From: Bifidobacterium breve
Lineage (GTDB): Bacteria > Actinomycetota > Acidimicrobiia > Acidimicrobiales > Ilumatobacteraceae
NCBI GenBank assembly: GCA_945893395.1
Contig: CAMDEC010000006.1
Coordinates: forward strand, 1-43,516
Direction: 5' to 3'
Length of the DNA stretch: 43,516 nt
Shown piece after piece: positions 32,970-38,330 of this stretch. Positions within the stretch are counted from its first letter, which is position 1, and each line of letters opens with the position of its first letter. Both the position numbers and the translations under genes were made by a program. The notes below the pieces were generated by a model. That model had not been told where the DNA came from. It worked only from the letters and a program-made list of their open reading frames with translations, and ran no database searches.

Positions 32970-32984
32970 CTTCAAGTAGACTGT

Positions 32985-32998
32985 CCTCGCGGGCGAGG
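32985..32998 (+). terminator. Short hairpin followed by a short T-tract upstream of the SpoIID-like gene (weak terminator or 5' UTR structure)
   Basis: CCTCG-CGGG-CGAGG, then ggagtttta. Five-bp stem, weak T-tract. Confidence 0.3.
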
Positions 32999-33013
32999 GA
33001 GTTTTAATTCTCT

Positions 33014-35389
33014 ATGCGCATACCCCAAATCTCATACAAACGGCGCTTCGTCGCATTATTCGGCATCGCAACACTCGTTGCGGGGCTCGCACCTGCGCAA
33101 CTCGCCCACGCCGAACTGGGGCAACTGCCTGGCGGCGTGATTATTTACGGTCGCGGTTTCGGCCATGGTCGCGGTCTGAGCCAATACGGTGCTTACGGCT
33201 GGGCAACCGTTCACGGCTGGTCGTGGGAGCAAATTCTCGATTTTTATTACGGCGGAGCAACGGGCAACTTGCGATCAAATCTTGAAGCACCAAACCAAGA
33301 TATGACAACTTGGCTGAGCGTGATGAACAACAAGCAAACCGGCGTCGTTTCAGACTCAAGCACGATGCGTCTGCTCGAAGACCCAGACCAGGGTCGACGG
33401 TTCACCAGCATGGTCGCCCGCGAAAAATCTGGGGCACAACGCGTCTATCAAGTTTGGGGTTCAGGCGAACGCAAATGTCTCAACGAATCTGACTCACCTG
33501 AGGCGGCAGGTTTTACGCTGATCGGTGAGTTCAATGAAACCGCATCGTTTCTCACCAACGCCAGTCAAGACCCCGCCGCATCGGCACTCGACACGGTTGG
33601 CCTTTGCGAACCCAAATCGGCAAGCGCAAATCAAGTTCGTTATTATCGCGGCATTGTTCGCGCGATGAACAACACAAAAAACGAAAACCGCACGATCAAC
33701 ATCGCTCGTCTTGACGATTATCTGCGTGGCGTCGTGCCACGCGAATCACCAGCATCATGGGGTGACACTGCTGGCGGTGCGGGCATGAATGCGTTGCGTG
33801 CCCAAGCCGTTGCTGCCCGATCTTATTCAGTCACCGAAAATCGTTATGCAGGTCTAGCGAAAACATGCGACACACAAGACTGCCAAGTTTATGGTGGTGC
33901 CGCACTTCGAACTTCAGTCAACGCATCACCGTCAGTTCTCGAAAGTGCCAATACCGATCGTGCCGTTGCTGAAACTTCTGGCGTTGTGATTCGAAATCCA
34001 AATGGCAATGTTGTGCGCACCGAGTTCTCATCTTCAAACGGTGGTCGCACCGCAGGTGGCGAATTTCCGGCCTTGGTTGACGAAGGTGATATTGCTTCGA
34101 ATAGTTCGCTAATGGTTTGGACGCGCGCGTTTTCTGCCACACAGATCGTCGCCAAATACCCACAAATCGGCATTCTTACTTCAGTTACGACAACGAACGA
34201 CGGTCTGGGTGGCGATTGGGGTGGCTACACGATTGATGTCACGATCACCGGCACTGCTGGCGCGGTCAAAGTTTCGGGTTGGGCGTTTCGCACATCATTC
34301 GGCTTACCTGCACCGTGGTTCGGAGCGACACAAGTTTTTGGCGCGCCACTTGAATCTGGTGTGGTTGGCTCAATGTTGTTCGTCGGTGACTCAATCGGTC
34401 AGAGCATCGTTCCAGAATTCTCGGCAATAATGTCGCCAGCCTATCCCTCGGTCAATTTTCAAGCCATCGCCAACCGCTGCATGGTCGGTCCGAGTTGCGT
34501 CACACCAGACAAAGGTTTGCCAGATGCAATCGGCGTCGTTAATTCGCTGAGCGTCGAACAGTTCCCACAAATTGCAATCGTTCAATTGGGATACAACGAC
34601 GACCCCAACACGATGGCCGGCGATGTGGCTGCAGTGATTAACGCGCTAAATGCACGCAATGTGCAAAGAATCATCTTTGTCAACCTGTCAACACGTCGCG
34701 CTTCACAAAACTATGCATTGTCAAACGCAGCGTTGGCGGCTGCCGCGCAAATCAACCCGAATGTTTCTGTCCTCGACTGGAACGCGGCCAGCAGCGACCC
34801 GTCGGCTTCGCGCTGGTTCAGCGACGACATCCATCTAACGACCACTGGTCGCACCGAGTTCACATTATTTTTGCGCAAGCAACTCGACGAACTTCGCGCC
34901 CAAGGTCTGATTACGCCGAACCCAGACAGTGTCTTGCCATTGGCGGTACCTCTAGTCGCTGGCAATCGAGGCGAGCCGGTTTCTCAGTTGCAAAAGGCAC
35001 TGAACGTCGCCCTGGGCTTGAAAAAGAAACAGAAACTTGCCACCGATGGCGCATACGGCAAAGGCACTGCAAGCGCCGTGAGCAAAGTCGAAGAACTCAA
35101 CGGTCTGCCAATAGACGGCATTGCTGACGTCACAGTCCTGAGCCTTCTTGGCATCGACACCACAACTTTCAAACTCAGTCGAAACTCGCGCCATACATCT
35201 ATAGCCACGGCTCAAACAGCACTCGCCCGTGTACTCAAAATTAAAATGAAGGCAGATGGAATCTTTGGTTCGGGCACGGCTAAACAACTCAAGCGCTTTC
35301 AAAAAAGTGTCGGGCTCAAACAAACTGGTGTGATCGACCGTACAACTTGGCTTTCGCTACTGGCTGCCAGCGCAACGCTCACAAAATAA
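33014..35389 (+). CDS. Secreted SpoIID/LytB-like protein with SGNH/GDSL hydrolase-like region and two C-terminal peptidoglycan-binding repeats
   Basis: Signal peptide; YGRGFGHGRGLSQYGAYGWA, LDDYLRGVVPRESPASWG, ALRAQAVAARSYSV (SpoIID hallmarks); MLFVGDSIGQS, IVQLGYND, SDDIHLTTTGR (SGNH blocks); two PG_binding_1-like repeats (GEPVSQLQKALNV... ; TAQTALARVLKIKMKADGIFGSGTAKQLKRFQKSVGLKQTGVIDRTTW). Confidence 0.87.
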   Translation: MRIPQISYKRRFVALFGIATLVAGLAPAQLAHAELGQLPGGVIIYGRGFGHGRGLSQYGAYGWATVHGWSWEQILDFYYGGATGNLRSNLEAPNQDMTTWLSVMNNKQTGVVSDSSTMRLLEDPDQGRRFTSMVAREKSGAQRVYQVWGSGERKCLNESDSPEAAGFTLIGEFNETASFLTNASQDPAASALDTVGLCEPKSASANQVRYYRGIVRAMNNTKNENRTINIARLDDYLRGVVPRESPASWGDTAGGAGMNALRAQAVAARSYSVTENRYAGLAKTCDTQDCQVYGGAALRTSVNASPSVLESANTDRAVAETSGVVIRNPNGNVVRTEFSSSNGGRTAGGEFPALVDEGDIASNSSLMVWTRAFSATQIVAKYPQIGILTSVTTTNDGLGGDWGGYTIDVTITGTAGAVKVSGWAFRTSFGLPAPWFGATQVFGAPLESGVVGSMLFVGDSIGQSIVPEFSAIMSPAYPSVNFQAIANRCMVGPSCVTPDKGLPDAIGVVNSLSVEQFPQIAIVQLGYNDDPNTMAGDVAAVINALNARNVQRIIFVNLSTRRASQNYALSNAALAAAAQINPNVSVLDWNAASSDPSASRWFSDDIHLTTTGRTEFTLFLRKQLDELRAQGLITPNPDSVLPLAVPLVAGNRGEPVSQLQKALNVALGLKKKQKLATDGAYGKGTASAVSKVEELNGLPIDGIADVTVLSLLGIDTTTFKLSRNSRHTSIATAQTALARVLKIKMKADGIFGSGTAKQLKRFQKSVGLKQTGVIDRTTWLSLLAASATLTK

Positions 35390-35394
35390 AATAA

Positions 35395-37179
35395 TCAGCT
35401 ATTAAATTTTTTTTGCCAGCTCTCGTCACTCACAAGAGTCGGATAAGCATCGCGGTATTCGCGCTTGAGCCGACGATAATTCAGCGCAATTTCTTTGGTC
35501 ACGACGCAGACTTCGCGCAATAACGCAAAAAACCGACGTGAGTCGCGCTCAACTACGAAACCTTCAGGCAGTCTGTCGTGGCGATACAAAATTCTGTTAT
35601 ATCTGGTTGCCAAACCCACGGCTCGCGAGTCAATCGGTGCAGTTCTTAAGACATCACGACGTAACGCCTTGGGCAAGACGTAGCCACCGATAAGTGGCAC
35701 GGCCAGTGCAAAACCAATCAAGCGGATCGGCTTGATCCTTGGTTTGGTGATTTTCACCGCAGCCAATTCTGCCGACAGCGGTGCGGGTTTTTCTTCAGAG
35801 ACTTTGCGCAAATCATCGTGTAGCGCCGAGTGATCCGTGGCGATCAACGCCGCCGGGCCCTGCAGATATGCACGCACACCGCGAATCATGTATTCGACGC
35901 TGGCGTAACGCATCGAGAACAAGTTTCTGAAACACAACGCTATGAACCGTCGCGCCAAGTGCCACCAGTGATGCCTGTCAAACACGAGCGTGTCGATGAT
36001 CGCAAAATTGCGCTTTTCATAAAACAACGAAGACGGGTTGTTTTTCAGACCAAAATCTGCGTGCCAGACGATCACGCCGTTCAAAGTAACGCTGTGCTTG
36101 CCGGTATGCAGCAAACCAAAACTCACATCGTCGCCACGCACAAAAATTGGTAACGGGTTATCCCGCGTGATCATCACCGGAAATGCCGTATACCACCACG
36201 CCGTATAGGCGAACTTCTTTTCGCGCGCATCGCGCAGCACTAATTTGCGCTCACGCAAGTCGTCTTCACGACCAATCGCCCGCAACGGATACAGCGATCG
36301 CCAACGATATTTCGAGCCCGCTTCAAACTGCATCCAACCTCGCTCTTCGCTGAGCATCGCTCCATGAATGCATAATTTTTCGTCACGCGCAAAACTAAAC
36401 AATGCATAGGTTCGCACGAGGGCATCTGGTTCGAGAGTGATGTCATCGTCCATCAACAAAATATGTGTCGACCAACCTTCGTTGCGCAGATGAATGATTC
36501 CGCGAGCGAACCCACCAGCACCACCCAAGTTGGGATTCTGCACGACCGTGATCGGCGCATTTTGTTCGGTATCAAATTCGATGTTTCGTGCGTTGTCGAC
36601 CACGAGCACACGCAGTTTGCCGCGCAGTGTTTCGACCGTTTTTTCAAGATGCAAAACTTTTGCCACGGTCGGCTTGACATAATCTTGGCGATTAAAAGTG
36701 GTTATCGACAGCGAAAGCCTGATCTCGCGCGCAACATTCGTGGTCGTCGTCCATTCTCCACCGGTAACCACAACATCGGTCTGCTCTGCGCTGAGTCGAA
36801 CGAAATAGCTTCCATAATTCGCCCCAGAAAAATCTGGCACTTCGATCGTCGTCTTGCCGTTCAACGCAATGACGGTCGAGGCAACGACTTTTTCTGTTTG
36901 TTTCAAGCCGAACAACTTGGCACTAACGCCCACAATTTCGATTCGACCAGACCCGGTTGCATAAACAGTCACGAAGAGATTCTCGATGGTGCTCAGCCGT
37001 CGCCAACGACCAGCGGCAAAAACCCCAAATGAAGTATCAAAACTGAGTTCAGCGCCCGCATGCAAAAGAACCCGACCATCTACGATCGGTGCATTACCTT
37101 CAGCGCGCACATACAGCAACGGCTCGGTTGTCTCTGCACGCGGCAGAGTCAGTCTTTGCAACAAAAAATTATTCATCAC
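35395..37179 (-). CDS. glfT2: GlfT2-like galactofuranosyltransferase (GT2 family)
   Basis: 594 aa; N-terminal beta-rich domain, LSITTFNRQDYV, NPNLGGAGGFARGI, ILLMDDDITLEPDAL, AWWYTAFP, WHADFGLKNNPSSLFYEKRNFAI. Confidence 0.9.
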   Translation of the reverse strand: MMNNFLLQRLTLPRAETTEPLLYVRAEGNAPIVDGRVLLHAGAELSFDTSFGVFAAGRWRRLSTIENLFVTVYATGSGRIEIVGVSAKLFGLKQTEKVVASTVIALNGKTTIEVPDFSGANYGSYFVRLSAEQTDVVVTGGEWTTTTNVAREIRLSLSITTFNRQDYVKPTVAKVLHLEKTVETLRGKLRVLVVDNARNIEFDTEQNAPITVVQNPNLGGAGGFARGIIHLRNEGWSTHILLMDDDITLEPDALVRTYALFSFARDEKLCIHGAMLSEERGWMQFEAGSKYRWRSLYPLRAIGREDDLRERKLVLRDAREKKFAYTAWWYTAFPVMITRDNPLPIFVRGDDVSFGLLHTGKHSVTLNGVIVWHADFGLKNNPSSLFYEKRNFAIIDTLVFDRHHWWHLARRFIALCFRNLFSMRYASVEYMIRGVRAYLQGPAALIATDHSALHDDLRKVSEEKPAPLSAELAAVKITKPRIKPIRLIGFALAVPLIGGYVLPKALRRDVLRTAPIDSRAVGLATRYNRILYRHDRLPEGFVVERDSRRFFALLREVCVVTKEIALNYRRLKREYRDAYPTLVSDESWQKKFNS

Positions 37180-38330
37180 GCCATCGGATCAACCGAAAAA
37201 CTCGGCAACGATTTTTTCGCGGTCAAACAATCCAGCATCACTTTTGACGCCGACAGTGCTTCATGAATCGTCACATCCATGTCTAGATAACGGTAGGTGC
37301 CAAGTCTGCCAATGAATGTCACGCCTTTGGCGCTGCGAGCCCGTTGCACATATTGCAGCAACTGCTCTTTTTCCTTGACCAATCGAATCGGATAATAAGG
37401 CGTATCAGTCTCGCCACAAAGTCGTGAAAACTCGCGATAGACAACTGTTTGAGAGTGAGTCTCCCAAGGTGCGAAGTGTTTGTGCTCGGTGATTCGCGTA
37501 TACGGCACCTCGACATCGCAGTAGTTGACAACTGGGTGACCCTGATAATCGCCGTCACTTACCTCGGGCAAAAAATCCAGGGTTCGGTAGCCCAATCGTC
37601 CGAATTCAAAATTAAAGTACGCATCGATTGGCCCGGTCCAGACAACATGGTCGAATTCACCAAACTCGCTCGACTCGCTCGGCACGAACTTCGTGTTGAG
37701 CCGCACTGAAATCGACGGGTGATCCAGAATCGCCTCGACTATCGGTGTATAACCATCTTTGGGTATCGCCTGATACGGGTGGTTGAAATATGAGTCGTCT
37801 TCCGTAAAGCGCACAGGCAGTCTCGCCAAAATACTTGCAGGCAACTCTTTTGGATCAACCCCCCACTGCTTTGACGTATAACCCGCGAAAAACGCCTCGT
37901 ACAACTCTCGACCGACGAATCGCAAACCTTGGTCTTCGAATGAAACCGGGTTGGTGATCGTCGTGTCAGCCTTGCTCTGAATAAATTCTTCGGCTTGCTG
38001 GGCATCAAAATCGCGGTCAAAAAACTGGTTGATCGTCTTTAGGTTCACCGGCAACGAATACATTGCGCCCTGCGAAATCGCCTTGACTTTGTGCCGATAC
38101 GGCATCATTTCACCAAAACGATTGATGTACTCCCAAACATGTTCGTGCTGTGTATGAAAAATGTGCGGACCATATTTATGGATCATCACGCCCGTGTCGT
38201 GACGCGCTGTAAAACAATTGCCGGCAACATGGTCACGGGCATCAAAAACCATGGCTTTGTGGCCCGCCTGCGCTAATTCTCGAGCGACAACCGCTCCTGA
38301 AAACCCAGCCCCAACAATGGCAAATCGCAC
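37176..38330 (-). CDS. glf: UDP-galactopyranose mutase
   Basis: AIVGAGFSGAVVARELAQAGHKAMVFDARDHVAGNCFTARHDTGVMIHKYGPHIFHTQHEHVWEYINRFGEMMPYRHKV, KQWGVDPKELPASILARLPVRFTEDDSYFNHPYQAIPKDGYT. GTG start. Confidence 0.96.
   Translation of the reverse strand: MRFAIVGAGFSGAVVARELAQAGHKAMVFDARDHVAGNCFTARHDTGVMIHKYGPHIFHTQHEHVWEYINRFGEMMPYRHKVKAISQGAMYSLPVNLKTINQFFDRDFDAQQAEEFIQSKADTTITNPVSFEDQGLRFVGRELYEAFFAGYTSKQWGVDPKELPASILARLPVRFTEDDSYFNHPYQAIPKDGYTPIVEAILDHPSISVRLNTKFVPSESSEFGEFDHVVWTGPIDAYFNFEFGRLGYRTLDFLPEVSDGDYQGHPVVNYCDVEVPYTRITEHKHFAPWETHSQTVVYREFSRLCGETDTPYYPIRLVKEKEQLLQYVQRARSAKGVTFIGRLGTYRYLDMDVTIHEALSASKVMLDCLTAKKSLPSFSVDPMA

Follow-up and report, generated by a model that had tools for sequence, protein, structure and literature searches.

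A circularly permuted SpoIID domain fused to an SGNH domain and two peptidoglycan-binding repeats in a secreted protein of one actinobacterial family

Introduction

What a single secreted protein would do with both a SpoIID and an SGNH domain is the question raised by one locus in the window analysed here, a stretch of 43,516 nucleotides from a 1.69-Mb metagenome-assembled genome (82% complete), whose near relatives are catalogued as Acidimicrobiia, Ilumatobacteraceae and acIV freshwater actinobacteria. A sequence-only reading of this locus had proposed that SpoIID, SGNH and two peptidoglycan-binding units are joined in one secreted protein, and that their combination suggests a processive wall-remodelling enzyme that both edits acetylation and cleaves glycan. 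An O-acetyl group on the C6 hydroxyl of MurNAc precludes the action of lytic transglycosylases, which need that hydroxyl (PMC1199599), and an esterase was proposed in 2005 to act ahead of these enzymes (PMC1199599). In Neisseria, the LtgA transglycosylase and the Ape1 esterase associate in a complex in which each stimulates the other (PMC7083599). SpoIID enzymes use denuded glycan as a substrate in vitro (PMC6221140, PMC6635528).

Results

Architecture of the protein

Positions 33014-35389 of the window hold a single open reading frame on the forward strand, with an ATG start and 791 codons for amino acids, whose features are as follows.

33014..35389, + strand: whole coding sequence, 791 aa, permuted SpoIID, SGNH and two PG_binding units (ORF call, Pfam/NCBIfam, model)
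33014..33112, + strand: predicted Sec signal peptide, aa 1-33, with KRR n-region, hydrophobic h-region and AHA followed by E (read from the sequence)
33125..33271, + strand: GxGHGxGxSQxGA block, aa 38-86, N-terminal here and C-terminal in solved SpoIID (PDB profile search)
33272..33628, + strand: beta-rich segment linking the block to the SpoIID core, aa 87-205 (alignment of relatives, model)
33629..34348, + strand: SpoIID core, aa 206-445 (PF08486/TIGR02669, model, Foldseek)
33743..33745, + strand: Glu244, counterpart of the catalytic residue E101 in C. difficile SpoIID (aligned in PDB profile search)
33866..33883, + strand: Cys285 to Cys290, equivalents of the C. difficile Zn ligands C140/C146 (alignment)
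34352..34915, + strand: SGNH domain, aa 447-634 (profile, PF13472, AlphaFold2, Foldseek)
34391..34393, + strand: Ser460, block I nucleophile (GDSIGQS, aa 458-464)
34595..34597, + strand: Asn528, block III oxyanion Asn (GYND, aa 526-529)
34823..34834, + strand: Asp604 and His607, block V (DDIHL, aa 604-608)
34952..35134, + strand: PG_binding_1-like repeat 1, about aa 647-707 (Pfam, model)
35192..35350, + strand: PG_binding_1 repeat 2, aa 727-779 (Pfam)

The presence of all these domains in one secreted protein, as first proposed, was borne out by profile HMMs, by a profile search of the PDB, and by AlphaFold2 and Foldseek; the whole-chain model, built with an 88-row alignment of relatives, reached a mean pLDDT of 93 and a pTM of 0.85. 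An assembly artefact or a pseudogene could be ruled out, as 136 of the 151 genomes of the family contain a match to the protein and every mature domain has a dN/dS far below 1; the signal peptide is the fastest-evolving part (dN/dS 0.2-0.8, compared to about 0.1 or less elsewhere). A phage origin was likewise rejected, as searches of viral sequences returned single-domain or weak matches only. The locus therefore encodes one secreted wall protein made of a permuted SpoIID domain, an SGNH domain and two wall-binding repeats, an arrangement that is real, ancient and conserved in its family. Just 5' of the start codon, at 32984-33005, lies a perfect inverted repeat (CCTCGC-GG-GCGAGG) followed by TTTT, which could form a leader hairpin or serve to terminate the gene before it.

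The SpoIID domain is circularly permuted

SpoIID/LytB hallmarks had been noticed in the N-terminal 430 residues or so, and both family models do match there above their cut-offs, PF08486 at aa 223-326 (E=1.9e-18, 67 bits, cut-off 23) and TIGR02669 SpoIID_LytB at aa 227-431 (E=1.2e-35, 124 bits, cut-off 83). What the earlier reading missed is the order of the parts. In the PDB profile search, residues 201-422 of the profile align with residues 53-270 of 4rwr (i-E 2e-25), and residues 35-87 match 271-322 of that chain (i-E 6e-13); 5i1t, from C. difficile, and 5txu gave the same split alignment. Since the block that ends the canonical domain aligns to the N-terminus of this protein, it opens a permuted SpoIID, and alignment thus indicates that the domain is circularly permuted, with the GxGHGxGxSQxGA block ahead of the core. 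The canonical order, core and then GHGxGxSQxGA block, was not found here, and we refer to the domain as a permuted SpoIID, classing it as a variant of the family outside its canonical members. When the domain was modelled alone (pLDDT 94.7), 5i1t was the only significant Foldseek match, at a TMt of 0.53, and with the full chain no SpoIID structure was among the best 50 hits; a permutation would be expected to cause such a miss and such a low TMt with an aligner that works sequentially.

Glu244 is invariant in 88 of 88 relatives and corresponds to Glu101 of C. difficile, for which a catalytic role is described (PMC6221140); by analogy with the family, the permuted domain would be a lytic transglycosylase with Glu244 as its general acid/base. 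With regard to the zinc site of C. difficile SpoIID (H134, C140, H145, C146), which is not universal within the SpoIID/LytB family, the two Cys equivalents are kept and both His ligands are not conserved. Two further cysteines of the connecting segment, Cys155 and Cys198, are near-invariant, and these four residues may form disulfides in the secreted protein.

To see how common the permutation is, we read block order in 30 loci from a phylum-wide sample carrying PF08486, and both orders were found to coexist in Actinomycetota, with about 13 permuted and 15 canonical loci. Rhodococcus and Tsukamurella plasmid copies have the permuted order, and copies from Paenibacillus, Acetoanaerobium, Niallia, Pusillibacter and Thermus the canonical one. 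On a tree of 93 SpoIID cores, whose backbone support is weak, block order changes at least six times, of which the supported branches force only two. A third arrangement was found in g26, a sister genus within the family of the window (L118 in genome G026 and L266 in G044), where the core is followed by the SGNH domain, then by the block and finally by LDTR repeats, so that the SGNH domain sits inside a SpoIID of canonical order. An artefact can be ruled out for this re-ordering, given that the same form occurs in two genomes, and it would be expected if the SpoIID fold has adjoining ends and the SGNH domain hangs at their joint.

The SGNH domain has the expected predicted fold and its catalytic Ser, Asn, Asp and His

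The GDSIGQS, GYND and DDIHL motifs had been read as the catalytic blocks of an SGNH domain. On the single sequence, PF13472 scored below its cut-off (E=0.0015, 19.5 bits, cut-off 32.9), unlike the SpoIID and PG_binding_1 models, which both scored above theirs; the relative L066, however, exceeds it (33.5 bits), and 46 of 46 relatives match PF13472 at E<=0.01. A profile of these 46 relatives found OatA domains in the PDB by sequence (E about 5e-6). The predicted fold was also found at the expected place, with pLDDT above 90 over most of residues 450-634 and, as first Foldseek match in the PDB, the OatA C-terminal catalytic domain 6vjp_A (prob 1.00, TMt 0.85, rmsd 2.4, 22% identity); OatA 5ufy reached a TMt of 0.73, and thioesterase I, PAF acetylhydrolase and PatB followed further down. 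Together with the conservation described below, profile and structure rule out a chance occurrence or misreading of the motifs, and the assignment of the three blocks is confirmed.

The catalytic residues are retained in close homologues. Ser460 is conserved in 45 of 48 aligned sequences, or in 46/46 once four degenerate members are left out; Asn528 is invariant in the 46 relatives, as is His607 (46/46), and Asp occupies the position three residues before this His in 38 of the 46, the remaining eight, all in one clade, having Cys. These eight would use a Ser-His dyad, for which there is precedent in SGNH enzymes of CE2. Their block V motif (L031, L030, L027, L032, L136, L138, L029 and L094) is CCWVHL or CCFVHL, with an insertion that carries two Cys. 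The Gly position of block II is Asn487 here and N, S or G in most relatives, and is followed by an invariant Arg488 that an HMMER alignment places in common with S. aureus OatA. Overall, Ser and His are retained in 46 of 50 fused SGNH domains, and active-site residues have been lost in L154 and in L125, L126 and L128, the latter three from genus g23, which makes these four domains look like pseudo-enzymes.

The fusion is confined to one family, and its wall-binding module is swapped

An SGNH domain following SpoIID in one chain was found only in the family of the window (Ilumatobacteraceae/acIV), and no such chain was present among the loci read from the rest of the order and phylum; this restriction to one family had not been part of the earlier reading. 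SpoIID is present in exactly one copy in each of the 55 SpoIID-bearing genomes of a 61-genome sample, and in some family genomes it comes without SGNH. In the tree, the 18 fused rows all cluster together (SH-aLRT 82), and their neighbours are unfused members from within the family, which indicates, on phylogenetic grounds, a single origin of the fusion by one event. The fusion protein is under strong purifying selection, with dN/dS of about 0.04-0.07 in the SGNH domain and 0.04-0.06 in the SpoIID core for pairs in which pS is unsaturated.

The two C-terminal repeats are indeed recognised by PG_binding_1 (E=5.2e-22, 78 bits, two stretches), although they are particular to the clade of the window and relatives carry other modules: three CW_binding_2 units in L096 and L153, an FG-GAP module in L119, and LDTR beta repeats in L066, L115 and L124. 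In L066, L124, L096, L153 and others, moreover, a PG_binding_1 insertion separates the GHG block from the core, and in L118 it lies ahead of the core. Judging from these comparisons, the wall-binding module is swapped between relatives while the SpoIID-SGNH pair is constant. Neither this swapping nor the neighbouring genes described next had been part of the earlier reading.

Neighbouring genes and acetylation context

Downstream of the fusion, on the opposite strand, lie two genes.

35395..37179, - strand: GlfT2-like galactofuranosyltransferase, convergent neighbour (PF19320, PF17994)
37176..38330, - strand: Glf, UDP-galactopyranose mutase, neighbour (PF03275, E=1.7e-79)

Throughout the clade these neighbours are retained, in relatives with as little as about 47% identity. 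Five permuted SpoIID loci of Mycobacteriales type (L189, L200, L204, L206, L207) are likewise close to glf, and four of the five have glfT2 nearby as well; no canonical-order locus lies near glf. A link between permuted SpoIID and galactan-bearing walls is therefore possible, but the pattern is suggestive only. A family-wide functional link was not upheld, as other family members with the fusion have no Glf or GlfT2 neighbour in the stretches read, and the association holds for the clade of the window and the Mycobacteriales-type loci only.

AT3 acyltransferases were found in 111 of 111 family genomes, with two in the genome of the window, so that O-acetylation is possible there; these proteins are ubiquitous, which left a presence-or-absence test for AT3 dependence uninformative, and they may act on other glycans. 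The fusion chain contains neither an AT3 (PF01757) nor an MBOAT domain, and in the genome, at 82% completeness, we found neither an MBOAT gene nor one for an Amidase_3, a possible partner. The two AT3 proteins carry SGNH domains of their own, which the profile of the fused SGNH scores at 32 bits (L186) or does not match (L185), and the same profile gives 60 bits to a stand-alone secreted SGNH protein, L002. In S. aureus OatA an Asp, presumably the solvent-excluding residue, stands four positions beyond the Ser; it corresponds to Ser464 here and to Ser or Gly in nearly all relatives. A solvent-excluding residue has been described for the S. aureus enzyme (PMC9487903).

Discussion

With catalytic residues intact in both domains, the most economical reading of this protein is that it edits an acyl group and cuts glycan, and in this respect the original proposal stands in part: whether acetyl is removed or added is not settled by sequence, as the closest solved SGNH relatives are transferases (OatA), and nothing was found in favour of processivity, which is thus unsupported. 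We consider it about an even call that the protein is a two-headed enzyme, secreted and anchored to the wall, whose SGNH domain de-O-acetylates MurNAc before the SpoIID lytic transglycosylase cuts. In such a scheme, the signal peptide would export the protein and the C-terminal PG_binding repeats, judging from their family, would hold it on the wall. The SGNH domain would then hydrolyse a glycan acyl ester, most likely the 6-O-acetyl of MurNAc, freeing the C6 hydroxyl that a lytic transglycosylase needs for the 1,6-anhydro end, and the permuted SpoIID would cut the MurNAc-GlcNAc bond with Glu244, as expected from its family, as general acid/base. One chain would thereby do the job of the separate LtgA and Ape1 of the Neisseria complex. 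Hydrolysis is favoured by the lack of an AT3 donor in the chain and by the higher score of L002 compared to the SGNH domains of the AT3 proteins. The analysis turned up nothing to indicate that Acidimicrobiia O-acetylate their peptidoglycan. Also counting against this scheme are the transferase activity of the closest solved SGNH relatives, the presence of SpoIID without SGNH in some family genomes, the retention of the fusion with a degenerate SGNH domain in genus g23 and, as to the assumed SpoIID activity, B. subtilis LytB, a SpoIID-domain protein that "does not hydrolyze PG" (PMC10653849).

The alternative that fares best, though we regard it as unlikely, is that the SGNH domain is an O-acetyltransferase that receives acetyl in trans from a membrane AT3 protein, so that the wall would be cut and then capped or protected, in a PatB-like division of labour. 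OatA C-terminal domains are in fact the best solved relatives, with PatB further down the list, Arg488 is shared with S. aureus OatA, and AT3 is found in every family genome. However, the chain has no acyl-donor domain and the genome no detected MBOAT gene, the AT3 proteins are already equipped with SGNH domains, the nearest SGNH that this genome encodes is secreted and stands alone, and the residue at the presumed solvent-excluding position differs.

It is quite improbable, in our opinion, that the SGNH domain acts instead on an ester of another wall polymer, such as an acylated polymer that contains galactofuranose, trimming the wall at sites of attachment to the C6 of MurNAc. The conserved convergent GlfT2-like and Glf genes, the Mycobacteriales-type loci near glf (mostly with glfT2, and with no canonical-order counterpart), and a pair of genes for LCP-type ligases elsewhere in the genome and within the window, one in each, would all fit with it, but the GlfT2-like and Glf genes are convergent and not co-transcribed with the fusion, other fused family members lack these neighbours in the stretches read, and no acyl-galactan is known here. 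That the protein is instead a non-enzymatic modifier like LytB, its SpoIID and SGNH domains mainly binding glycan to localise or stimulate other autolysins, would agree with the B. subtilis protein and with the degenerate domains of g23 but is very doubtful given the invariance of Glu244 and the retention of Ser and His in nearly all fused SGNH domains.

Returning to the de-O-acetylase and transglycosylase scheme, we would entertain, as a long shot, a more specific version, with the SGNH domain placed at the natural end-to-end joint of SpoIID and both sites working on the same MurNAc C6, so that a single chain would gate acetylation, the anhydro cut or, in view of the GlfT2-like and Glf neighbours, galactan attachment. 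If the scheme is true, the protein would be a covalent version of the esterase and lytic transglycosylase pair that was put forward in 2005 and that Neisseria has as a complex. Cutting of the wall at places where acetyl groups would block it may be explained in this way. One purifiable protein and two point mutants would suffice to address the coupling of both activities. The permutation has implications of its own, as a single bacterial family contains proteins with the block before the core and others with it behind, and SpoIID thereby offers a natural experiment in domain permutation. The permuted form is widespread in Actinomycetota, yet it is annotated plainly as "SpoIID/LytB domain", and a search for the family that uses only the core model, PF08486, leaves the permutation invisible.

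The individual domains are known, and we could not find a description of either the permuted SpoIID or the fusion; full-text searches, whose coverage excludes most subscription papers, returned no literature on SpoIID with SGNH or on circular permutation of SpoIID. Among known systems, the SpoIID lytic transglycosylases of Bacillus and Clostridioides (4rwr, 5i1t, 5txu) share with this protein the core fold, the catalytic Glu, the GHGxGxSQxGA block and two of the four zinc-site residues of C. difficile SpoIID. The protein described here differs from them in its permuted order, with a long beta-rich segment between block and core, in lacking the zinc His ligands, and in not being a sporulation protein but one fused to SGNH and wall-binding modules. 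The C-terminal SGNH domains of OatA (6vjp, 5ufy) have the same fold and catalytic residues; here, however, the AT3 membrane domain is missing, another residue occupies the presumed position of the solvent-excluding Asp, and the SGNH domain is joined to a predicted glycan-cutting domain. The "SpoIID/LytB domain-containing" proteins of Rhodococcus ruber and Tsukamurella have the same permuted order, but they lack SGNH and end in other C-termini, an LGFP repeat in the case of Rhodococcus. Finally, the Ape1-LtgA pair of Neisseria meningitidis (PMC7083599) follows the same logic as that proposed here, a de-O-acetylase paired with a lytic transglycosylase, although it consists of separate proteins with a transglycosylase of an unrelated family, whereas the protein of the window would combine both in one chain of the SpoIID type.
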